Positions 3,804 to 20,950 of a stretch of 21,791 bases of DNA are shown piece after piece (within the stretch, counting starts at the first letter, position 1; every line of letters starts with the position of its first letter). Under the pieces are notes generated by a model. It was not told the origin of the DNA. It saw only the letters and a list, made by a program, of their open reading frames with translations, and did not search any database. The stretch is from IMG/VR virus record IMGVR_UViG_3300005613_000459, positions 1 through 21,791 of that record. One strand, given 5' to 3'. This stretch comes from a virus. Both the position numbers and the translations under genes were made by a program.

Positions 3804-3863
3804 ATTTAAAATTATTGCGTTGATAATCAACAACTTATAATAATCTTGTAAAAAAGTTGCAAC

Positions 3864-3900
3864 AAAAATATACAAGGTAAAGTAAAAGGTTGTATCTTTG
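3864..3900 (+). promoter_or_regulatory. phage-type promoter, copy 1
   Basis: Box AAAAATATACAAGGTA (3864-3879), 13 nt, then the -7 box TATCTTTG (3893-3900). This 37-nt layout recurs six more times in the window with no change in spacing. It follows a terminator and drives the gene at 3931 through a leader also found at 18544. Confidence 0.85.
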
Positions 3901-3930
3901 TTACATCACTAACAATTAAAACTAAACACA

Positions 3931-4140: not shown

Positions 4141-4154
4141 TAATAACCCCCACG

Positions 4155-4174
4155 GGGCGCAGCATCCTACACTG
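4155..4174 (+). repeat. 20-nt intercistronic repeat, copy 1
   Basis: GGGCGCAGCATCCTACACTG, identical to 10526-10545. Both copies are preceded by CCCACGG and followed by nAATT and then a gene start after an ACTAAAC leader. CCCC next to GGGG upstream of the repeat could form a tiny hairpin in the mRNA. Confidence 0.85.
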
Positions 4175-4203
4175 CAATTACTAACCGATAAAAACTAAAC
4201 ACA

Positions 4204-5864: not shown

Positions 5865-6239
5865 ATGAACTTTGAAATAACAGGCGTTATCCACGAGATA
5901 AGCGAAACAGTCCAAAAGACAGAGAAATTCAGAACCCGTGAGTTTGTGCTGGAAGTGCAAAAGCAGATAGGCGACCGCACCATTACCGACTATGTAAAGT
6001 TCCAATCCACAGGCGACAAGTGCGACATACTCAACCGCTATTCTACTGGCGACATCGCAACCGTGCATTTCAATATCCGTGGCAACCGTTGGGAAAAGGA
6101 CGGCAAAGTATCTTACTTCACCAATCTTGACGCTTGGCGTATTGAAAGCAGCCAACAAACAAACGACACGCCCGTAACGTACAAAGCAAAGCAAAGTGCA
6201 CCAGCTGAAGATAATTACTCTTCGGATTTGCCGTTTTAA
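5865..6239 (+). CDS. DUF3127 protein, probable single-stranded DNA-binding protein
   Basis: A 124-residue protein that fits DUF3127 well: MNFEITGVIHEI, FRTREFVLEVQ, YVKFQSTGDKCDIL, VHFNIRGNRWEKDGK and YFTNLDAWRIE occur in order. DUF3127 proteins are Bacteroidota OB-fold-like proteins. The linker after residue 97 is polar and ends in the acidic, hydrophobic tip YSSDLPF, like the SSB tail that recruits replication and repair proteins. It sits just upstream of the Erf annealing protein, so a role in coating ssDNA during replication and recombination is likely. The SSB function is inferred. Confidence 0.85.
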   Translation: MNFEITGVIHEISETVQKTEKFRTREFVLEVQKQIGDRTITDYVKFQSTGDKCDILNRYSTGDIATVHFNIRGNRWEKDGKVSYFTNLDAWRIESSQQTNDTPVTYKAKQSAPAEDNYSSDLPF

Positions 6240-6247
6240 TTTTGCCT

Positions 6248-6284
6248 AAAAATATACAAGGTAACGAAATAAACCTTATCTTTG
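6248..6284 (+). promoter_or_regulatory. phage-type promoter, copy 3
   Basis: Box AAAAATATACAAGGTA (6248-6263), 13 nt, then TATCTTTG (6277-6284). It drives the gene at 6315 and probably the Erf gene. It shows that an ORF start at 6282 would lie inside the promoter. Confidence 0.85.
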
Positions 6285-6314
6285 TATCATTCATTAACCA
6301 CTAAACCAAACACA

Positions 6315-7628: not shown

Positions 7629-7675
7629 AATTTACGGCAGTATTTATTTTGCCTTAATGGTAAAAAAAGTTGCCT

Positions 7676-7712
7676 AAAAATATACTAGGTATTATAAAAG
7701 GTTGTATCTTTG
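7676..7712 (+). promoter_or_regulatory. phage-type promoter, copy 4
   Basis: Box AAAAATATACTAGGTA (7676-7691), 13 nt, TATCTTTG (7705-7712). The centre ATAC-TAG-GTAT is a perfect dyad here. The leader TTACATCACTAACAATTAAA is shared with copy 1. Confidence 0.85.
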
Positions 7713-7742
7713 TTACATCACTAACAATTAAACACAACCGTT

Positions 7743-10254: not shown

Positions 10255-10282
10255 GTGAAAATAATTCTAAAAAAAGTTTTGT

Positions 10283-10319
10283 AAAAATATACTAGGTATT
10301 GCAAAAGGTTGTATCTTTG
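10283..10319 (+). promoter_or_regulatory. phage-type promoter, copy 5
   Basis: Box AAAAATATACTAGGTA (10283-10298), 13 nt, TATCTTTG (10312-10319). The dyad ATAC-TAG-GTAT is present. It serves the unit that contains the helicase-methyltransferase. Confidence 0.85.
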
Positions 10320-10358
10320 GTGTATAGTAATTCAGTAATCAACTAAAACAAACCAAAA

Positions 10359-10517
10359 ATGAAAGTTTACGTAGTAACGTTGTGGTATCCAAAAACAAAC
10401 TCTTTGATTATAGATGGTGTATTTGGCTCAAAAGAAGATGCACAAGCAAAGGCAAAAACACTAGCAAAACAGGACGGTTCTGTAATGGTAGGGATACAAA
10501 CACATTGTATAAACTAA
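10359..10517 (+). CDS. small protein of unknown function (52 aa)
   Basis: MKVYVVTLWYPKTNSLIIDGVFGSKEDAQAKAKTLAKQDG... looks like a compact alpha/beta domain: strand, strand, then a helix beginning SKEDAQAKAKTLAK. This layout (a beta hairpin ending in GVF, then a helix) occurs in small phage and bacterial proteins of unknown function. It is the first gene behind promoter copy 5, with a standard A-rich leader. An overlapping longer ORF from 10382 in another frame is not real in this part. Confidence 0.7.
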   Translation: MKVYVVTLWYPKTNSLIIDGVFGSKEDAQAKAKTLAKQDGSVMVGIQTHCIN

Positions 10518-10525
10518 CCACCCAC

Positions 10526-10545
10526 GGGCGCAGCATCCTACACTG
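10526..10545 (+). repeat. 20-nt intercistronic repeat, copy 2
   Basis: Identical to 4155-4174 and placed the same way, between the first and second gene of a unit started by a phage-type promoter. Confidence 0.85.
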
Positions 10546-10573
10546 TAATTTTTTAACCACTAAACAAACTAAA

Positions 10574-10765: not shown

Positions 10766-10851
10766 AAAGACTACTAAAGATAATACTAGCCATAGCAGTC
10801 CTGTGGTTAGTGATTGATGCCGCTAACTCTATAAACCAAGTACTACAATGA
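10762..10851 (+). CDS. 29-residue membrane peptide
   Basis: MKRLLKIILAIAVLWLVIDAANSINQVLQ: a basic start and one hydrophobic span (about 4-20). It overlaps both the upstream gene and the helicase-methyltransferase gene by ATGA (4 nt each). It resembles the peptide at 5756 in its MKR start, length and coupling. Function unknown; it may mainly serve translational coupling. Confidence 0.5.
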   Translation: MKRLLKIILAIAVLWLVIDAANSINQVLQ

Positions 10852-13073
10852 ACGACTATTTAGAATTTTTAGAAAGCAAAGCCAAGACCATTATCCATAG
10901 TGGTTTTGAGCCTAAAGAATTAAACCCGTTACTATTGCCGTTTCAAAGGCATATTGTAACCACAGCTTTAATAGCTGGTAAATTTGCAATATTTGCTGAT
11001 TGTGGATTGGGTAAAACCTTTATGCAGCTTGAGTGGGCATATCGGGTTGCCGAGTATACAAATAAAAAAGTATTGATACTTGCACCGTTAGCAGTAGTAA
11101 AGCAAACAAAGCAAGAAGCTGAAAAGTTTAATATTGGTATGTCGAATATTGATATTATCAATTACGAGCAACTTGATAATATTGATGTCAGTCAGTACGT
11201 TGGTATTGTTTTAGACGAAAGTAGCATACTTAAAAACTTTACAGGCAAAACCAAAAAGAAACTAATTGACGAGTTTAGCCAAACACCCTACAAGTTAGCT
11301 TGCACCGCAACACCAAGCCCAAACGACCTTAACGAAATTGGCAACCATAGCGAGTTTTTGGATGTACTTGATGCACAAGATATGAGGGCAAAGTGGTTCG
11401 TTAGGGACGAGGGCATGAATAATTACCGTCTAAAGCACCACGCTAAAGTTGATTTTTACGGCTGGATTAGTAGTTGGGCTATAATGATTACAAACCCAAA
11501 AGACTTAGGCTTTAATGATGTTGGTTATAATCTTCCGTCATTGAACTTCATTGAACATGAGATTAAAACGGGCAACAGGAATAACGGAATGTTATTCAAT
11601 CAGTCTAATGTATCTGCTACTGAGTTCAATAAGGAGTTGAGATTAACATTAGTACCTAGATTAGATAAAGTAGCTGAGATAGTCAATAACTCGAGTGATT
11701 TTTGGATAATTTGGGTTAATCAAAATGCCGAAGAGGACGCAATACTAAAGCTAGTTCCCGATGCCGTTTCCGTTAACGGTTCAGAGCCAGCTGAAACAAA
11801 AGCACAAAAGCTATTGGATTTTAAGAATGGCAAGTTTCGAGTATTGGTAACAAAGAAAAAGATAGCACAATACGGGTTGAACTTCCAACATTGCCATAAC
11901 CAAGTATTTGCCGCCCCCGACTTTAGTTTTGAAGGTTTATATCAAGCTATTCGAAGGTCGTATAGATACGGTCAAAAAAACAACGTAAATATTTACTTCA
12001 TAACCACTGACACAATGGAAAACGTAACCAAAGCAATTGAGAGAAAACAAGCTCAATTTTTAGAAATGCAAGCTGAAATGAACAAATTTATAAATGGCGA
12101 CAAATTTGGGCTATTGAATACCTATGACTTTAAGGAGGTAAAAACAGATAAGTTCCACCTAATGAAAGGAGATAGTTGCATTGAGATTGCTAGAATACCT
12201 GACAATTCAGTTGACTTAATTATATTTAGCCCCCCATTTAGTAGCTTATTTACCTATTCTAACTACATACATGATATGGGTAACAACGAAAGCCATGACG
12301 ACTTTTTTAAGCAATACTTGTTTTTGCTCAAAGACCTATACAGGATACTGAAGCCAGGACGGTTAATGTGTTGCCATACTAAAGACTTGGCAGTTTACAA
12401 AAATTCAAGCGGCTATACAGGACTGTATGACTTTACTGGAGCGCACCACCGGGTAGTCGAAGAATCTGGCTTTAAATACCACTCTAAAATTAACATTTGG
12501 ACTGACCCCGTACTTGAAATGCAGCGAACTAAAACACAAAGACTACTATACAAACAACTGCGCAAAGATAGTAGCTATACTGGCGTAGGTTTGCCCGAGT
12601 ACGTCACAGTATTTAGGAAGTGGGATGGCAATGAAGAAGATTGGAATCCTATAAACAATAAAAACGCTACTAACTTTCCTTTGGACACATGGCAATCTTG
12701 GGCAAGTCCAGTATGGCCAGTGCAAAAAGAAGACATTGAACACTTAGCCGAGGTAGAACAGCAATATACAACTCAATCGTGGATGGATATTAAACGAACT
12801 GACGTATTGAACAACCGTGAGGGCACTGCAATGGGTGATGAAAAGCACATCGCACCTCTTCAGCTATCTGTAATACGTAGATGCGTTCAAATGTGGAGCA
12901 ATCCAAATGAAGTTGTTTTTACTCCATTTTTAGGAATTGGAAGCGAAGTTTACGAATCTGTAAAGTTAGGTCGACGTGGTATTGGAATTGAATTAAAAGA
13001 TAGCTATTTCGATGTGGCAGTAAAGAATTGTACAGCTGCGGCAAGTACTTGTAACCAACTAACACTATTGTAA
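10848..13073 (+). CDS. SF2 helicase / DNA methyltransferase fusion protein
   Basis: A 741-residue protein with two enzymes in one chain. Residues 25-420 are a Snf2-like superfamily 2 helicase: LPFQRHIV (30-37), Walker A DCGLGKT (51-57), motif II DESS (123-126), motif III TATPS (153-157) and motif VI QAIRRSYRYGQ (366-376). Residues 440-741 are an amino-methyltransferase: motif IV SPPF (461-464) comes first and the AdoMet motif FTPFLGIGSE (691-700) last, an order that fits the beta class, as in N4-cytosine or N6-adenine enzymes. Such phage fusions may modify phage DNA against host restriction. No endonuclease motif is visible. Start overlaps the membrane peptide by 4 nt; stop overlaps the next ATG by 1 nt. 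Confidence 0.9.
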   Translation: MNDYLEFLESKAKTIIHSGFEPKELNPLLLPFQRHIVTTALIAGKFAIFADCGLGKTFMQLEWAYRVAEYTNKKVLILAPLAVVKQTKQEAEKFNIGMSNIDIINYEQLDNIDVSQYVGIVLDESSILKNFTGKTKKKLIDEFSQTPYKLACTATPSPNDLNEIGNHSEFLDVLDAQDMRAKWFVRDEGMNNYRLKHHAKVDFYGWISSWAIMITNPKDLGFNDVGYNLPSLNFIEHEIKTGNRNNGMLFNQSNVSATEFNKELRLTLVPRLDKVAEIVNNSSDFWIIWVNQNAEEDAILKLVPDAVSVNGSEPAETKAQKLLDFKNGKFRVLVTKKKIAQYGLNFQHCHNQVFAAPDFSFEGLYQAIRRSYRYGQKNNVNIYFITTDTMENVTKAIERKQAQFLEMQAEMNKFINGDKFGLLNTYDFKEVKTDKFHLMKGDSCIEIARIPDNSVDLIIFSPPFSSLFTYSNYIHDMGNNESHDDFFKQYLFLLKDLYRILKPGRLMCCHTKDLAVYKNSSGYTGLYDFTGAHHRVVEESGFKYHSKINIWTDPVLEMQRTKTQRLLYKQLRKDSSYTGVGLPEYVTVFRKWDGNEEDWNPINNKNATNFPLDTWQSWASPVWPVQKEDIEHLAEVEQQYTTQSWMDIKRTDVLNNREGTAMGDEKHIAPLQLSVIRRCVQMWSNPNEVVFTPFLGIGSEVYESVKLGRRGIGIELKDSYFDVAVKNCTAAASTCNQLTLL

Positions 13074-13676: not shown

Positions 13677-14169
13677 AATAGACAACTTCATGCGATTGCA
13701 AAAGAACGCAATTGGGAAAAGAGCCTATCCCTACAATGACCGCTACTATTTAAGTAACAGGGGACACGTTTACGACAGGCAAGATAAGAAATGGCTAACG
13801 CCAATAATGCGTAAAGGCGGCTTTTGTATGAGGTTGAAAGATGAAGATGATAAGAGCTACTACATAAGCTTATTAACTATGGTAGCCGAAACATTTTTAG
13901 CGGAAGGGAAACGGGTTACAGCGGTCAAAACAAAAGACGGCAATAAGCTAAATACCCATATTAGCAACTTGATAGTTAAGACCGTAGAAAAAGACGAAAA
14001 CGATTACTTGATGGAATACGCTTCATCACAGCGCAATCATTACTACAACAAGCCAGACTTAACCGAAAAGGAAATAGAGTTTAATCTCGAGCAAAGACTA
14101 AAAGGTTGTACCAACCCGAAATTTTTTCGCTGGCTATGCGCTGGCACTAACCAAAACTTTATAACATGA
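13663..14169 (+). CDS. NUMOD4/HNH-related protein lacking the HNH catalytic residues
   Basis: A 168-residue protein. The N-terminal part has a NUMOD4-like DNA-recognition pattern: YYLSNRGHVYD (28-38), KKWLTPIMRKGGFCMRL and a LLTMVAETFL helix (70-79). In phage homing endonucleases this is followed by an HNH motif of the type NHidgnk.N....NLE. Here it reads VKTKDGNKLNTHISNLIVKT (88-107): the framework (DGNKLN, NL) is kept, but the catalytic His pair is missing. It is likely a former homing endonuclease kept as a DNA-binding protein. The C-terminal 50 residues are of unknown type. Overlaps both neighbours. Confidence 0.65.
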   Translation: MSQCEIDNFMRLQKNAIGKRAYPYNDRYYLSNRGHVYDRQDKKWLTPIMRKGGFCMRLKDEDDKSYYISLLTMVAETFLAEGKRVTAVKTKDGNKLNTHISNLIVKTVEKDENDYLMEYASSQRNHYYNKPDLTEKEIEFNLEQRLKGCTNPKFFRWLCAGTNQNFIT

Positions 14170-14447: not shown

Positions 14448-14696
14448 ATGAAACCAATACCATTATTGTTTTCTTTACTGGCAATGATAAGTTTTTCCGC
14501 AGCTATTGGAATGGCAATCGAGCGTGAGATTAACCCATGCACTTGCCCCGAAACATTGCCCAAACAAGTAACGGATATGTTCACTATCAAAGGCGACACG
14601 CTGGTAATTAAACAGGGCGTGGACTTTGTGATTAGTACCCGTGCGGTAAATGTTGACACCGCTGGCATTTTGCACCGTAAAAATTTTGCAAAGTGA
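14448..14696 (+). CDS. small membrane-anchored or exported protein (82 aa)
   Basis: MKPIPLLFSLLAMISFSAAIGMAIERE...: an N-terminal hydrophobic segment (4-24) that is either a signal anchor or a signal peptide, followed by a periplasmic-type domain with Cys31 and Cys33 (NPCTCPE) and a beta-like region (MFTIKGDTLVIKQGVDFVIST). No lipobox is seen. Function unknown. Its last codons overlap the candidate -33 region of the following promoter (TTTTG, 14684-14688). Confidence 0.7.
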   Translation: MKPIPLLFSLLAMISFSAAIGMAIEREINPCTCPETLPKQVTDMFTIKGDTLVIKQGVDFVISTRAVNVDTAGILHRKNFAK

Positions 14697-14715
14697 AAAG
14701 TAATTTGTAACTTAG
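14684..14715 (+). promoter_or_regulatory. promoter of structured leader 1
   Basis: TTTTG (14684-14688), 19 nt, then TAACTTAG (14708-14715). The octamer and its flanks (AATTTGTAACTTAG) are identical to those before leader 2 (15612-15625), and TAACTTAG also stands at the -7 position of promoter copy 2. TTTTG at this distance is close to the usual Bacteroidota -33 element. Confidence 0.65.
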
Positions 14716-14854
14716 TGCCACGATAATAAACTAAGGTTGCTGAATCGCAAAAACAGAACCGTAGTATCACAAATTAACTTATAGCCCTTTTGTTGCCGTA
14801 GCCTATTGCGATTAGGTGAAAGCGCAAAAGGGCTTCTTGTTTTATGGAAAATGA
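14716..14854 (+). promoter_or_regulatory. structured leader RNA, copy 1 (kissing-hairpin element)
   Basis: Hairpin A: GATA-CTA-GGTT-CTG (14722-14742, with small internal loops and a bulged G) pairs with CAG-AACC-TAG-TATC, presenting the 11-nt loop AATCGCAAAAA (14743-14753). Hairpin B: perfect 10-bp AGCCCTTTTG (14783-14792) / CAAAAGGGCT (14825-14834), then an inner CCTA/TAGG stem (14802-14805/14813-14816) with loop TTGCGAT (14806-14812). That loop is complementary to ATCGCAA in loop A (7 bp). Hairpin B is followed by a T-rich stretch leading into the ATG at 14844, so it could act as an attenuator or gate translation. ATGGAAAATGA at the gene start is also shared with copy 2. Confidence 0.75.
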
Positions 14855-15404
14855 CAATATAAAGCACTTTGTGCTTAACGAGCATAGCAAATATTTTTGC
14901 AATTCATATGGTTGCTGCAAAGTTCATTTCCCTACGGTTATCCAAGGTACTTTTATTCTTGTTAGTTATAATCAGTGCTTAAATACACCTTCGGAAATAG
15001 AATGGAGATTGCAATTAATAAGAGCGGCAATAAAAAACTCTAACATAGCGGCAGTATCAACCGAAAATGCCGTTAAAATTAAAAAGTTAAATAAAGAATG
15101 GTTTAAAGGTATGATGCATAAAGAATACGTTTACGAACATCATTTTTTATACCATAATAACTTTCATGGCGATATGTCCATATCAACAAAGTATAAGTTC
15201 ATAGACTATATTTTTTCCCGTGAAAAGTTATTGAATAGCATGACAAAAGCAATTCGATACATTAGGGAAAATGAATTGCCGAATTATCTTATTGAGGAAA
15301 TACAGGATTTAGCAGAAGCTAATTTGCCGCCAAAAATAAACGATTCAGTAATAGTAACGAGTATAGATGATTTTATTAATGAAATAAACCAATTAACAAA
15401 ATGA
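14844..15404 (+). CDS. protein of unknown function under structured leader 1 (186 aa)
   Basis: MENDNIKHFVLNEHSKYFCNSYGCCKVHF... The N-terminal part is rich in Cys, His and Tyr (Cys19, Cys24, Cys25, His28) and might bind a metal. The middle (85-135) is rich in aromatic residues and His (EYVYEHHFLYHNNFHGD), and the C-terminal part is helical and acidic. I recognise no family. Its leader and first 11 nt match those of the replication gene at 15746, so it is probably controlled with it and may act in replication. It overlaps the next gene by 4 nt. Codons are more AT-rich than in its neighbours. Confidence 0.75.
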   Translation: MENDNIKHFVLNEHSKYFCNSYGCCKVHFPTVIQGTFILVSYNQCLNTPSEIEWRLQLIRAAIKNSNIAAVSTENAVKIKKLNKEWFKGMMHKEYVYEHHFLYHNNFHGDMSISTKYKFIDYIFSREKLLNSMTKAIRYIRENELPNYLIEEIQDLAEANLPPKINDSVIVTSIDDFINEINQLTK

Positions 15405-15613
15405 AAAGCACAAAAGACGTAACAACGAAAGAATTATTGCGCCACACGTTTGACACAATGATGTTGCTAAAATCAAAAGCAATTGATGTAGATGAAGCAA
15501 AGGCACAGGCAAACTTGCTTAAACAGGCAAACAACCTATTCAAGTATGAACTGGATAGGGCTTGCGCTATTCAAAAATTTGAAAACCTAGAAATTAGGAA
15601 TATTGAAGATTAA
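15401..15613 (+). CDS. small helical phage protein (70 aa)
   Basis: MKSTKDVTTKELLRHTFDTMMLLKSKAIDVDEAKAQANLLKQANNLFKYELDRACAIQKFE... is one or two long helices. The pattern KELL-HTFDTM-LL--K-ID---AKAQANLLKQANNL-KYELDRA--I-KFE is familiar from small proteins of other phages and prophages in this phylum, always without assigned function. It is coupled to the preceding gene (ATGA) and lies just upstream of the second structured leader. Confidence 0.75.
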   Translation: MKSTKDVTTKELLRHTFDTMMLLKSKAIDVDEAKAQANLLKQANNLFKYELDRACAIQKFENLEIRNIED

Positions 15614-15617
15614 TTTG

Positions 15618-15625
15618 TAACTTAG
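15618..15625 (+). promoter_or_regulatory. promoter octamer of structured leader 2
   Basis: TAACTTAG within AATTTGTAACTTAG, identical to the promoter flank of leader 1. No TTG lies at the -33 distance here, so recognition may depend on the octamer and the ATTTG just before it. Confidence 0.6.
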
Positions 15626-15756
15626 CGGAACGATAATACAGTTGGCGAGTCCGAAAAACGCTATTGTATTTTAAAAGACATCTTATAACCCCTTTGTTAC
15701 CGTAGGCTATTCGGACTAGCTGAAAGTACAAGGGGGTTTCTTTTTATGGAAAATGA
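15626..15756 (+). promoter_or_regulatory. structured leader RNA, copy 2 (kissing-hairpin element)
   Basis: Same fold as copy 1 with changed sequence. Hairpin A: AATACA and TGGCG (15634-15647) pair with CGCTA and TGTATT (15659-15670), loop AGTCCGAAAAA (15648-15658). Hairpin B: ACCCCTTTGT (15688-15697) / ACAAGGGGGT (15728-15737), with one G-U pair, inner GCTA/TAGC (15706-15709/15717-15720), loop TTCGGAC (15710-15716), complementary to GTCCGAA in loop A. Every changed base in the inner stem and in the loop-loop helix is compensated relative to copy 1. ACGATAATA, CCGTAG, TGAAAG and TTCTT...ATGGAAAATGA are conserved. Confidence 0.75.
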
Positions 15757-16528
15757 AGGCAACTATTATGCTATATTGACCGCAACGGTTAGGCATGATA
15801 AACGGTTAAGTAGCGATGAAAAATTACTTTATGCTGAAATTACGGCACTATCAAATAAATATGGCTTTTGTTGGTCATCTAACGACTATCTATCAAAGAT
15901 ATTTGATTGTACGGTTCAAAGTATTAGCCGCTGGATAACTAACCTGGAAGCTTACGGATATGTAAAGCGTGAAATAGACAAAGCGGCTGGCAATAAACGT
16001 AAATTATACCCTTTAGTTACTTACCTACCCTCACAATCCTCAAAGCAAGACCTATTAACTGACCAAGCAATACCTATTAACACACAAGTTAATACCCCTA
16101 TTAATCCTACGGTTAAGTATAATACTATAATAGATAATACTATAAAAGAAAGAGAGAGCACTCGAACAATTTTTGAAAAGCCGATATACGAAAGACAATG
16201 GGAAATACCATTTGCTACCGACTTTAAAACAAAACTGGAAAGCACACAAGACGGCAAAATAGCACTAACCAAGATATCCAAACTTTGGGAAACTTGGATA
16301 GTGGTACGCTACAAAGCACATAACCGCAAATTCAATTCCGACATCAGCGAAGCGCAAGCATTGAGTAATTTTTTAAGACAATGCAAAACTACTAACCATG
16401 CCATTGCTAGCCTAAAGAAAATGATAGCAGGTGAGCACCTTAATCCCTTTGCGGTGGATTTTGAAACCACAACCGAAAAGAAACCAAAATTGAACCACTA
16501 CGGATTTGACGTAAGCAGATTAGGATAA
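15746..16528 (+). CDS. helix-turn-helix phage replication protein
   Basis: A 260-residue protein. Residues 1-85 form a winged helix-turn-helix of the HTH_36 type found in phage and plasmid replication initiators: YAILTATVRHDKRLSSDEKLLYAEITALSNKYGFCWSSNDYLSKIFDCTVQSISRWITNLEAYGYVKRE. A Thr/Asn-rich linker (95-130) follows, then a helical C-terminal domain (140-260) with two conserved-looking Trp (WETWIVVRYK). The primase-helicase starts 2 nt after its stop, so it likely binds the origin and/or loads the helicase. The start lies 8 nt after hairpin B of leader 2, so its synthesis should respond to that RNA. Confidence 0.8.
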   Translation: MENEGNYYAILTATVRHDKRLSSDEKLLYAEITALSNKYGFCWSSNDYLSKIFDCTVQSISRWITNLEAYGYVKREIDKAAGNKRKLYPLVTYLPSQSSKQDLLTDQAIPINTQVNTPINPTVKYNTIIDNTIKERESTRTIFEKPIYERQWEIPFATDFKTKLESTQDGKIALTKISKLWETWIVVRYKAHNRKFNSDISEAQALSNFLRQCKTTNHAIASLKKMIAGEHLNPFAVDFETTTEKKPKLNHYGFDVSRLG

Positions 16529-16530
16529 CT

Positions 16531-18288
16531 ATGGAATGGAAAGATATAAAGCTAGGCAACCGCACCACAGGCACTATACAAACAACTTGCCCTGAATGCA
16601 GCCACACCCGTAAGAAAAAGACGGATAAGTGTTTGAGCGTGGATTTGGACAGGGCTTTGTACAAGTGCCATCATTGCGGTGCTAGTGGAAGCAAACACAA
16701 GTTCCAGCCCAAAGAGGTGGTAGTGGTGAATATGCCAAAACTTAACACTACCGACCTTAGCGAAAAGATGTTTGCTTACTTCCAAAGCCGCCACATATCC
16801 ACAACCACAATCAAGCGCAACAAGATAACCGAGGGTATGAGGTACATACCAGCGGAAAACAAAGAAATGAATTGCATTTGGTTCAACTACTTCAAGAGTG
16901 GTCAACACGTCAACACTAAATTCAGAACCGCCAAAAAACAATTTACACAAATAAAGGGCGCACCCAAGCACTTCTACAAGATAGATGACGTAAAGGACAC
17001 GGCTATTATTTGCGAGGGCGAATGGGACGCACTTAGTTGGGAGGAAGCAGGGTTCAATTACGGCATATCCGTACCCGATGGAGCGTTACCGCCAAACGCT
17101 GAATACTCGGACACCAAGTTTGAGTACATCGATAACGACATCGACATACTTTTGGGGGTTAAGGAAATTTATTTGAGCATCGACAACGACCCAGCAGGGC
17201 AACATTTACAAAAAGAACTTAGCCGCAGGGTAGGACGTGAAAAGTGTTTTATAATCGATTTGGGCGAGTTTAAGGACGCTAACGAGGTACTGACCACACT
17301 AGGTAAGGTAGACGGGATTGAACACCTTAGAAACGCAATAATAAACGCCAAGCCTTACCCTATCGAAGGAGCGCAAACGGTCAACAACTTCAAAGACCAG
17401 CTACTTGACATTTACCATAACGGTTTCGACAGCGGCAACGGGGTTAATTTCCCTACGCTCGATAAATTCATTAGATGGGTGCCGATGTTGTACATGGTTA
17501 CTGGTGTACCCTCACATGGCAAGTCCACGTTTCTCGACCAGATAGTATGCAGGCTAATGGAATACAGCAGCTGGAAGTTTGCCGTGTATTCACCCGAGCA
17601 CCCACCACAGCTACATTTGCAAAGGTTAGCCCGTATGCTGAACAATAAAGCGTTTTTCGGTCATAACAGGATGAGCGAAAAAGAACTACTTGACACGGTG
17701 GCATGGCTTAACGAGCGTATATTTTTTATCATGCCCGACAATGACGACTTCGGACTAGAGAACATATTGGACATAGGAAAGCAGTTAGTAGTTCAAAAGG
17801 GCGTTAACTGTTTGATAATCGACCCTTGGAACACGGTAGACCATCAGATACCAAACGGCATGAATGGAAACCAATACATCAGCAAAGCACTGACAAAAAT
17901 AAAGCTATTCAATACCAAACTGGATTGTGCCGTGTTTTTGGTGGCGCACCCTACCAAGATGCTAAAGAACGAGGACGGGACGTATAAAGTGCCAACGGGT
18001 TACAACGTATCGGATAGTGCACACTTTTACAACAAAGCCGACATGGGTATAACCGTATACCGTAACTTTGACACGGGTATTGTTGACGTGCATATTTGGA
18101 AGGTAAAGTTCGAGGGTATACTAGGGCAACAAGGCGTAGTGAACTTTACCCATGACAAAGAAACTGCCACATACAAAGAGGTAAACGAATTTCAACAAAT
18201 AGAACCTATTGCCACACCAAAAATAAAGCGACCTAATGAAGACGACTTTGACCCATTTGAAGATATTACCAATGACGTTCCCATTTGA
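16531..18288 (+). CDS. bifunctional primase-helicase, T7 gp4 type
   Basis: A 585-residue replication enzyme. Zinc-binding primase domain: CPEC (Cys20, Cys23) and CHHC (Cys46, Cys49). TOPRIM primase: ICEGEWDALSW (160-170, Glu162) and SIDNDPAG (216-223, Asp218, Asp220). DnaB-type helicase: Walker A GVPSHGKST (325-333, Lys331), acidic PEH in the next strand, Walker B CLIIDPWN (427-434, Asp431) and a VAHPTK sensor (471-476). It should unwind DNA 5' to 3' and make RNA primers at the fork. Size and order match T7 gp4. It follows the replication HTH gene by 2 nt and overlaps the next small gene by 17 nt. Confidence 0.95.
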   Translation: MEWKDIKLGNRTTGTIQTTCPECSHTRKKKTDKCLSVDLDRALYKCHHCGASGSKHKFQPKEVVVVNMPKLNTTDLSEKMFAYFQSRHISTTTIKRNKITEGMRYIPAENKEMNCIWFNYFKSGQHVNTKFRTAKKQFTQIKGAPKHFYKIDDVKDTAIICEGEWDALSWEEAGFNYGISVPDGALPPNAEYSDTKFEYIDNDIDILLGVKEIYLSIDNDPAGQHLQKELSRRVGREKCFIIDLGEFKDANEVLTTLGKVDGIEHLRNAIINAKPYPIEGAQTVNNFKDQLLDIYHNGFDSGNGVNFPTLDKFIRWVPMLYMVTGVPSHGKSTFLDQIVCRLMEYSSWKFAVYSPEHPPQLHLQRLARMLNNKAFFGHNRMSEKELLDTVAWLNERIFFIMPDNDDFGLENILDIGKQLVVQKGVNCLIIDPWNTVDHQIPNGMNGNQYISKALTKIKLFNTKLDCAVFLVAHPTKMLKNEDGTYKVPTGYNVSDSAHFYNKADMGITVYRNFDTGIVDVHIWKVKFEGILGQQGVVNFTHDKETATYKEVNEFQQIEPIATPKIKRPNEDDFDPFEDITNDVPI

Positions 18289-18460: not shown

Positions 18461-18476
18461 ATAAAAAAAGTTGCCT

Positions 18477-18513
18477 AAAAATATACAAGGTATTGAAACA
18501 AGTATTATCTTTG
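18477..18513 (+). promoter_or_regulatory. phage-type promoter, copy 6
   Basis: Box AAAAATATACAAGGTA (18477-18492), 13 nt, TATCTTTG (18506-18513). The downstream leader through ATGACAACT is identical to that of copy 1. Confidence 0.85.
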
Positions 18514-18543
18514 TTGTATCACTAACAATTAAAACTAAACACA

Positions 18544-19823: not shown

Positions 19824-20089
19824 CACCAATCCTAGTAAGAAACCAAATCGAATGGGACAGGCTTGCGCCCGTGCTGGAAAAGTTGGGGTATAAAAGACTT
19901 GACCTGCTTAATACATCTAAGGGCTTTGTTTTTGTTCAGAGTAACAAGAAAACATTTTCGTTCTTAAATATTTCCGACTGGTGCAATTCTTATGAGCAGC
20001 ATTATGGGAAAGTCCAAACAGTAGACGAATACCTACAAGCTAACCCCCTCGAAATCGATGGGATTAAACCCGACTCAAAGAAAAGCTAA
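19820..20089 (+). CDS. chimeric small protein with a C-terminal module shared with 20720-20950 (89 aa)
   Basis: MTPILVRNQIEWDRLAPVLEKLGYKRLDLL... The first 65 residues form an alpha/beta domain of unknown type. From residue 66 the sequence QTVDEYLQANPLEIDGIKPD is the same as in the ORF at 20720: 59 nt are identical (20015-20073 and 20723-20781). Right after this, ACTCAAAGAAAAGCTAA matches 20924-20940. The tail DSKKS and stop thus seem to come from a 142-nt deletion, with a frame change, in a copy of the longer gene. Function unknown. Confidence 0.7.
   Translation: MTPILVRNQIEWDRLAPVLEKLGYKRLDLLNTSKGFVFVQSNKKTFSFLNISDWCNSYEQHYGKVQTVDEYLQANPLEIDGIKPDSKKS
20015..20073 (+). repeat. 59-nt exact direct repeat, copy 1
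   Basis: Identical to 20723-20781. Encodes QTVDEYLQANPLEIDGIKP in both places. A second shared block of 17 nt follows directly here (20073-20089) and lies 142 nt further on in the other copy (20924-20940). Confidence 0.92.
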
Positions 20090-20108
20090 GTTAATAAATT
20101 ATTTACTC

Positions 20109-20145
20109 AAAAACATACAAGGTATTGATTTAATGATTATCTTTG
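20109..20145 (+). promoter_or_regulatory. phage-type promoter, copy 7
   Basis: Box AAAAACATACAAGGTA (20109-20124; one T to C change), 13 nt, TATCTTTG (20138-20145). It starts the last small-gene unit. Confidence 0.8.
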
Positions 20146-20168
20146 ATGTATCACTAAACAGTTAAGCT

Positions 20169-20378
20169 ATGAAAGCTCTAGTAAAATCACACATCAACAA
20201 ATGCGCTAAAGGCAACCACAATTTTTTTACAATATCTAAAAGCATACAACAACATTTTGACCTAACGGCTGATGGTGCTGCCGAGTATAAAGAATACATT
20301 GAAACTAAGCTGCAACAAAAAATGGCAAAAGAATTATCACAACCATATTATGCAGGTCGCAATATCCGTTTTCAATAA
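20169..20378 (+). CDS. small basic helical protein (69 aa)
   Basis: MKALVKSHINKCAKGNHNFFTISKSIQQHFDLTADGAAEYKEYIETKLQQKMAKELS... is basic at the N terminus, with a long C-terminal helix. No family recognised. First gene after promoter copy 7. Confidence 0.7.
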   Translation: MKALVKSHINKCAKGNHNFFTISKSIQQHFDLTADGAAEYKEYIETKLQQKMAKELSQPYYAGRNIRFQ

Positions 20379-20610: not shown

Positions 20611-20732
20611 ACACACAACCAATAGCCGACCACCTAGACGGCGCAATAATCCGTTTGCAGCTACTCATAGTTGGAATAAGACAGAAGTTTATGAATGGGC
20701 TAGAGATGAAGGAGAACCCTTGCAAACAGTAG
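20607..20732 (+). CDS. 41-residue ORF with recycled N-terminal module, probably a recombination remnant
   Basis: MNTQPIADHLDGAIIRLQLLIVGIRQKFMNGLEMKENPCKQ. The first 20 residues copy the start of the protein at 18818. After about 20668 the DNA instead reads better in another frame (WNKTEVYEWARDEGEPLQTVDEY), which runs into the ORF at 20720 without a stop. The module seems to have been joined out of frame to the front of that gene. It may still be translated as a short peptide. Confidence 0.5.
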   Translation: MNTQPIADHLDGAIIRLQLLIVGIRQKFMNGLEMKENPCKQ

Positions 20733-20950
20733 ACGAATACCTACAAGCTAACCCCCTCGAAATCGATGGGATTAAACCCGATTACAAAGCCCTTTACGAA
20801 GCCCAAACAAAGGCTATTGAGGAAGCTATTGAAATCTACGAGGGGAATATGCTTGGTAGGGATAGAGATAGTGACTGTTGGTCTGGAGGGTATTGCGAAG
20901 GTTTTTATGTGGCAATTGAAATACTCAAAGAAAAGCTAAACCATGAGTAA
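20720..20950 (+). CDS. small acidic protein, 5' end altered by recombination (76 aa from TTG)
   Basis: QTVDEYLQANPLEIDGIKPDYKALYEAQTKAIEEAIEIYEGN...GFYVAIEILKEKLNHE: an acidic helical protein. There is no ATG at its start. The open frame extends upstream past 20720 (through WNKTEVYEWARDEGEPL) with no ATG before the module join near 20668. Translation would need the TTG at 20720, another weak start, or a frameshift from the ORF at 20607. It may be a pseudogene. The last codons overlap the next ORF. Confidence 0.5.
   Translation: MQTVDEYLQANPLEIDGIKPDYKALYEAQTKAIEEAIEIYEGNMLGRDRDSDCWSGGYCEGFYVAIEILKEKLNHE
20723..20781 (+). repeat. 59-nt exact direct repeat, copy 2
   Basis: Identical to 20015-20073; 708 nt apart. 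Confidence 0.92.

Follow-up and report, generated by a model that had tools for sequence, protein, structure and literature searches.

Two leader RNAs, each consisting of two hairpins whose loops are complementary to each other, were found in a 21.8-kb virus record (21,791 nt; IMG/VR IMGVR_UViG_3300005613_000459, positions 1-21,791; hereafter the window), and the same RNA design, about 100 nt long and placed directly behind the promoter, was found in Bacteroidota phages of at least ten genera, where it precedes the replication operon although the genera share little sequence. Compensatory changes among the compared sequences strongly support the conservation of the leader fold, and the leader probably decides whether the polymerase reads on into the replication genes.

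As listed in Table 1, the leaders lie ahead of ATG 14844 and ATG 15746, where a first, sequence-only reading of this DNA had placed them, and their coordinates and sequences agree with that reading. The blocks described there as shared between the copies, ACGATAATA, CCGTAG, TGAAAG and the common gene start ATGGAAAATGA, are present in both, together with stems and loops that differ. Each leader is predicted to fold into hairpin A and hairpin B, with a stability better than that of nearly all dinucleotide shuffles (z = −3.3 and −2.8), and a descriptor of the full layout matches the + strand of the window solely at the two leader sites. In both copies, loop A is complementary to loop B, and the resulting kissing helix consists of loop bases only in the window family, with no base shared with the stems. 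The compensation between the two copies proposed in the sequence-only reading holds for the kissing helix, the inner stem and the 2-bp step from GC to AC, whereas some changes in the outer stem are one-sided, to G-U pairs. Hairpin B is not listed by a simple terminator scan of the window, because its long interrupted stem falls outside the definition used by the tool.

Table 1. Features of the two leaders and of the genes behind them, in window positions.
Feature	Position	Strand	Evidence or remark
Copy 1, −7 box TAACTTAG	14708-14715	+	Sequence; Bacteroidota consensus TAnnTTTG
Copy 1, upstream TTTG	14685-14688	+	19 nt upstream of −7 box
Copy 1, leader RNA	14716-14843	+	Putative 5' end near conserved ACGATAATA (14720-14728)
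Copy 1, hairpin A	14730-14765	+	Predicted fold, comparison
Copy 1, loop A, AATCGCAAAAA	14743-14753	+	Sequence
Copy 1, loop A strand of kissing helix, ATCGCAA	14744-14750	+	Covariation
Copy 1, A/T-rich linker between hairpins	14766-14782	+	Sequence
Copy 1, hairpin B, terminator-like	14783-14834	+	Internal loop CGUA/GAAA 14797-14800/14818-14821
Copy 1, loop B strand of kissing helix, TTGCGAT	14806-14812	+	Covariation
Copy 1, U-tract, TCTTGTTTT	14835-14843	+	Sequence
Gene behind copy 1, 186 aa	14844-15404	+	No Pfam or PHROG family
Copy 2, −7 box TAACTTAG	15618-15625	+	No good −33 TTTG
Copy 2, leader RNA	15626-15745	+	Sequence, predicted fold, homologues
Copy 2, hairpin A	15635-15670	+	Loop strand GTCCGAA 15649-15655
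Copy 2, loop A, AGTCCGAAAAA	15648-15658	+	Partner TTCGGAC 15710-15716
Copy 2, hairpin B	15687-15738	+	Loop strand TTCGGAC 15710-15716; internal loop 15701-15704/15722-15725
Copy 2, U-tract, TCTTTTT	15739-15745	+	Sequence
Gene behind copy 2, replication initiator, HTH_36	15746-16528	+	PF13730 3.7e-12; several PHROG replication-initiation families
Toprim primase / DnaB-type helicase	16531-18288	+	PF03796; phrog_239 1.5e-79

The homologues provide the main evidence for the fold. A pattern scan of IMG/VR with three short conserved blocks gave nine matches, two of which were true (L005 and its duplicate L008), and a second scan added L022 and L025; two further scans, one of them with 76 stretches, gave no new member. 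The remaining pattern matches were judged, by eye or with a covariance model, to be due to chance. A search with the conserved upstream protein encoded at 14166 gave L027 (duplicate L028), L029 and L032, whose leaders diverge further. The covariance-model search suggested earlier was carried out with a model built without the kissing helix; it recovered three homologues outside its training set (L032, E = 1e-27; L027, 3e-21; L029, 2e-9), and a second copy in the L022 contig, ahead of another gene, was found at E = 3e-6. Beyond the two window copies, seven further distinct homologues from related phage contigs have the same fold with different, fully compensated loops.

The kissing strands in the nine distinct sequences are AUCGCAA, GUCCGAA, AUGCGAA (twice), CUCGGAA, CUGCCA, CCGCCA, CUCGCAA and CUGACAA, and the partner always matches. 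In the model alignment of these nine sequences, 95% of the cells of the kissing helix are paired and six of its seven pairs have changed on both sides; the unpaired cells all come from L029, where loop A is shifted by one column, and by eye the L029 loops are fully complementary. The covariation score of the kissing helix is 0.675, compared with 0.197 on shuffling (0/500 shuffles) and at most 0.087 when the helix is slid; the nested stems covary as well (0/500). The re-paired loops, in which the helix between loop A and loop B is kept by compensatory change, strongly support the earlier proposal of selection on RNA structure, the kissing helix included.

The internal loop CGUA/GAAA is also conserved inside the window family, as would suit a riboswitch-like RNA in which a small molecule or protein binds this loop and the kissing helix is a scaffold. 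However, the internal loop is not conserved across the phage groups. Rfam 15 at the gathering threshold gave no family for the window, nor for ten leader-bearing loci of other phages, and a permissive Rfam search gave chance-level matches only, none to a riboswitch. We regard this reading as very improbable.

A BLASTN search with the window leader gave no match in known phages, so the wider class is visible by structure only. Weak matches of the covariance model in the cultured Tenacibaculum phage JQ and in the Polaribacter phages Freya_1 and Danklef_1 lie in intergenic gaps just before replication genes, and these sites have the same layout with new loops, AGCAUCCUACUU:AGGUAGGAUGCU in JQ and GGUGGAA:UUCCACC in Freya. 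Because the layout recurs there with new loops, a structure-only descriptor was written, which requires hairpin A (loop no longer than 17 nt), a linker, hairpin B with an outer stem, and a T-rich tract behind it, with loop A forming seven or more Watson-Crick pairs to the apical part of hairpin B. It was applied to 28 records (2.48 Mb on both strands). Nineteen of these are cultured phages that were treated as phages of Bacteroidota, eight come from IMG/VR, with the window among them, and a Staphylococcus phage served as the control; crAss001 was scanned up to its last few kb and elemoA up to its last 1 kb.

The scan gave 19 matches with a score of at least 20, TAnnTT[TA]G just upstream and an ATG within 62 nt, several of them near-duplicates. 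The sequences used to tune the descriptor were those of the window family, JQ, the first Freya copy and the second copy of L022. Under the same filters, 0.15 matches were expected from 20 rounds of dinucleotide shuffles, and none was found in 2.6 Mb of natural control DNA. The matches outside the tuning set are those in Flavobacterium phage 11b, Cellulophaga phages phi19:1 and Nekkels, Flavobacterium phage elemoA, filifjonk9-1 and morran9-1, and a second Freya copy. The layout is also present in FCL-2 and phi10:1, which do not pass the strict promoter filter, and, at a lower score, in P12002L. At least one leader is present in 12 of the 19 cultured phage genomes (Polaribacter, Tenacibaculum, Cellulophaga and Flavobacterium phages), whose sequences can no longer be aligned; this fraction is not a census because some phages were picked for a helicase related to that of the window; none was found in phi39:1, vB_RanS_PJN03 (whose record names no host), P12024S, P2559S, 6H, B124-14 and crAss001. 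By BLAST, the Freya leader occurs in 17 Polaribacter records, and the 3' part of the phi10:1 leader is matched by 30 records of Flavobacterium LMO phages, with the element present in all eight that were read. The second leader of Polaribacter phage Freya_1 (L191, 4668-4743) has the kissing pair CCGCCAAG:CUUGGCGG and lies ahead of a gene for a metal-dependent hydrolase; the DNA at this site is different in Danklef.

A scan of genome contigs, with 57 loci, gave no member (best E 0.19), and a GUGAGA loop pattern occurred at two loci in 397 Flavobacteriaceae genomes, in neither of which the descriptor finds anything. The sole match in 395 Bacteroidota genomes (model R2, E 0.011) is not this element. 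Host chromosomes and prophages are thus no visible reservoir for a model trained on one phage group.

The layout is constant in the order of a TAnnTTTG-type promoter, hairpin A, an A/T-rich linker, hairpin B with its U-tract, and the start codon, which includes the succession of promoter, hairpin with U-tract and first gene that is expected of an attenuator. The Bacteroidota promoter consensus consists of TAnnTTTG at −7 and TTTG at −33 (PMC7366714), and a −7 box of the form TAnnTT[TA]G is at the expected place in 18 of 20 leaders. The length of the linker is weakly related to that of hairpin B (rho 0.48; p = 0.03 with related copies and 0.08 without them), too weakly to count as evidence. The distance from hairpin B to the ATG varies from 7 to 46 nt among the phages, while the U-tract is always present, which favours an effect on transcription over the translational gating that had been offered as a second possibility and is now less likely. 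A structure controlling 5' stability or translation, with transcription unaffected, would accord with the window and several relatives, where hairpin B ends 7-10 nt before the ATG; nevertheless, the distance is 37-48 nt in JQ, phi10:1 and the Flavobacterium LMO phages, and the U-tract, which this role does not need, is retained there. Such a structure therefore appears improbable.

Other intergenic repeats were also observed in the window. Six copies of a repeat of about 74 nt (3851-3924, 6235-6308, 7663-7736, 10270-10343, 18464-18537 and 20096-20169) carry AAAAATATACNAGGTA upstream of TATCTTTG and apparently represent another type of promoter, specific to the phage and different from the leader promoters, whose copies have an upstream element in common. 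Two intergenic copies with 86% identity at 4144-4179 and 10515-10550 (TAACC..CACGGG..GCGCAGCATCCTACACTG) are possibly a regulatory or terminator element, and an exact 59-nt duplication (20015-20073 and 20723-20781) lies between two small genes.

The sequence-only reading had assigned the genes behind both leaders to a replication block. This is clear for the gene at 15746, a replication initiator, and is proven for copy 2 only, since the gene at 14844 has no detectable family; no relatives of the initiator were found in IMG/VR. Nearly all leaders are followed by an operon that encodes a replication initiator and a helicase. The family of the initiator differs between phages; it is HTH_36 in the window and phrog_11233, phrog_9327, phrog_4707, phrog_1701, phrog_2514, phrog_428, phrog_678 or phrog_19415 elsewhere, and DnaB-like or primase-helicase proteins come next in most cases. 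In the window family, one leader type is joined to non-homologous replication modules, and the leaders of Freya and Danklef are 97% identical with different first genes behind them. The exceptions are window copy 1 (the 186-aa gene), Freya copy 2 (the hydrolase, phrog_392) and the second copy in the L022 contig (phrog_503); these three contexts argue against the leader as a replication origin or primer.

In four phage groups, an uncharacterised gene of about 70-78 aa lies between leader and initiator (L220 16291-16524, L307 14015-14224, L230 10381-10596 and L302 8990-9214); the two that were searched against PHROG, from JQ and elemoA, gave no match. By eye, a 741-aa frame of the window (10848-13073) has a helicase-like N-terminal part and a DNA methylase-like C-terminal part, and the 782-aa DnaB-type helicase of a related phage (L005, 5780-8128) contains an apparent in-frame intein-like insertion (...GMGKCLGKGTKVIM ... 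VTHNTSLML...).

The kissing loops change together with their partners across phage groups as well. The phages filifjonk9-1, morran9-1 and elemoA have a common seed, GUGAGA, after which the next base differs and its partner has changed with it (C-G, A-U and U-A), so that one kissing position shows three pair types in three phage groups (GUGAGACG:CGUCUCAC, GUGAGAAG:CUUCUCAC and GUGAGAUG:CAUCUCAC). For 19 loop pairs, the mean energy of the cognate duplex is −11.5 kcal/mol, compared with −2.3 kcal/mol for non-cognate duplexes, and the cognate partner is the best in 18 of 19 rows. The two loop pairs had been described as orthogonal, and within a genome cross pairing is indeed weak (−0.1 to −3.1 kcal/mol, compared with −8.3 to −15.7 kcal/mol for the true partners); selection for orthogonality is not established, because unrelated loops are orthogonal anyway, as the non-cognate mean indicates, and over all sequence pairs the kissing helix does not diverge significantly faster than the stems. 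For the latter reason, diversifying selection is not claimed.

The divergence of the loops also bears on a reading in which the terminated leader is a small RNA whose loops act in trans on the leaders of sister or rival phages, for copy control or superinfection exclusion, by the logic of P4 CI RNA, c4 RNA and pT181 RNAI. The promoter and terminator would delimit an RNA of about 100-125 nt, and the loops differ in near-identical leaders; between copy 1 and L005, three of seven kissing pairs and one of 28 stem pairs have changed (p = 0.02 for that pair of sequences), although this excess is not significant over all pairs. Moreover, a tyrosine integrase (PF00589) is absent from 15 of the 17 carriers checked and found in two, so that prophage immunity is not a general role, and an antisense TAnnTTTG promoter occurs at only 4 of 20 loci, with no fixed place. 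A role in trans is thus distinctly unlikely.

The reading that we prefer, to which we give roughly an even chance, is that the leader is a transcription attenuator in which the upstream hairpin holds on to the loop of an intrinsic terminator, thereby setting how much transcription reads through into the replication operon. The transcript would begin at the host-type promoter, and hairpin A, the first in line, would fold at once; the A/T-rich linker would let it reach the apical loop of hairpin B, the putative intrinsic terminator ahead of the first gene of the operon. Pairing of the two loops over at least 7 bp would lock hairpin A beside the terminator hairpin forming at the U-tract, and this lock would set the fraction of polymerases entering the initiator-helicase operon, and with it when or how strongly the replication genes are expressed. 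Because the kissing helix of the window family shares no stem bases, the lock would coexist with hairpin B instead of acting as a strand-exchange switch. The attenuation proposed at the outset fits the constant arrangement of promoter, terminator-like hairpin and U-tract; the promoter-like sequence, the two hairpins, the kissing helix (through covariation), the U-tract and the location at replication operons are established, whereas termination at hairpin B, an influence of the kissing helix on it, with its direction, and any signal are presumed, and we lean slightly towards kissing lowering termination.

A promoter placed before a terminator implies that termination is conditional, that the terminated RNA has a role of its own, or that the RNA disables termination, and the same order would be compatible with a small RNA or with an element for antitermination. 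Among 13 leaders cut after loop B, no conserved alternative pairing was found besides the duplex of loops A and B. Many attenuators have a mutually exclusive antiterminator fold, which is not required in all. In the leaders, neither a conserved antiterminator alternative nor a ligand pocket was found, and three copies precede other genes, which counts against attenuation.

The main rival is a put-like processive antiterminator, in which the nascent two-hairpin RNA, paused at the U-tract, would bind the elongating polymerase and make it ignore this and later terminators of the operon. As in HK022 putL, two stem-loops lie directly behind a phage promoter (PMC9378689), the leaders head long operons, and some phages have more than one copy. 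On the other hand, HK022 putRNA is about 70 nt, with no kissing loop mentioned (PMC9378689), whereas a U-tract follows the RNA here, and a polymerase-binding RNA should keep its primary sequence, while the promoter alone is common to all leader families. We consider put-like antitermination unlikely. A broader proposal is a protein-free RNA device, common to the phages of the whole phylum Bacteroidota, whose nascent kissing complex directly reprograms RNA polymerase at the terminator of the device, through antitermination or a timed release, and thereby sets the timing of phage DNA replication. It would add a principle of RNA-only antitermination beside put and EAR, and is doubtful.

To our knowledge, little is known about gene timing in phages of Bacteroidota, which are major bacteria of the gut and the sea. 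Cultured carriers amenable to laboratory work are available in the Flavobacterium LMO phages, FCL-2, 11b, and Cellulophaga phi10:1 and phi19:1. Regulatory parts for Bacteroidota are scarce, and the leaders suggest terminators that could be tuned and programmed through their sequence.

Several known systems share features with the leaders. The ColE1 RNAI-RNAII kissing complex, which concerns a replication primer, forms between two molecules; the leaders resemble it in the fully paired 7-nt loops of two hairpins, but their kissing is intramolecular and some of them precede non-replication genes. P4 CI RNA and P1/P7 c4 RNA are short phage RNAs whose complementarity to leader sequences stops the expression of replication-block genes; they act in trans in lysogenic immunity, whereas the carriers of kissing leaders mostly have no tyrosine integrase. 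In pT181 and pIP501, antisense-controlled transcription attenuators of plasmid rep genes, an RNA-RNA contact decides termination (PMC5703833). The phage leaders likewise place a terminator-like hairpin immediately upstream of a replication initiator gene, but the partner in the plasmids is a separate countertranscript, whereas the phage leader carries both loops on one transcript; a countertranscript of the pT181 type is unlikely because no antisense promoter of the TAnnTTTG type is conserved. HK022 putL and putR are likewise two-stem-loop nascent RNAs of a phage just behind a promoter, and they act on transcription (PMC9378689); the put promoter is early, as the leader promoters may be. The put RNAs (about 70 nt, lambdoid, Enterobacteria) differ from the leaders, which are about 80-130 nt and have a kissing loop and a terminal U-tract, and no sequence similarity was seen. 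A search of the literature outside subscription journals and preprints gave no description of such leaders. The plasmid rep attenuators and HK022 put RNA are the nearest functional parallels, and the leaders fit neither in full; we class them as a new leader RNA family of phages, a variant among leaders of the attenuator type, for which the mechanism outlined above is a proposal.
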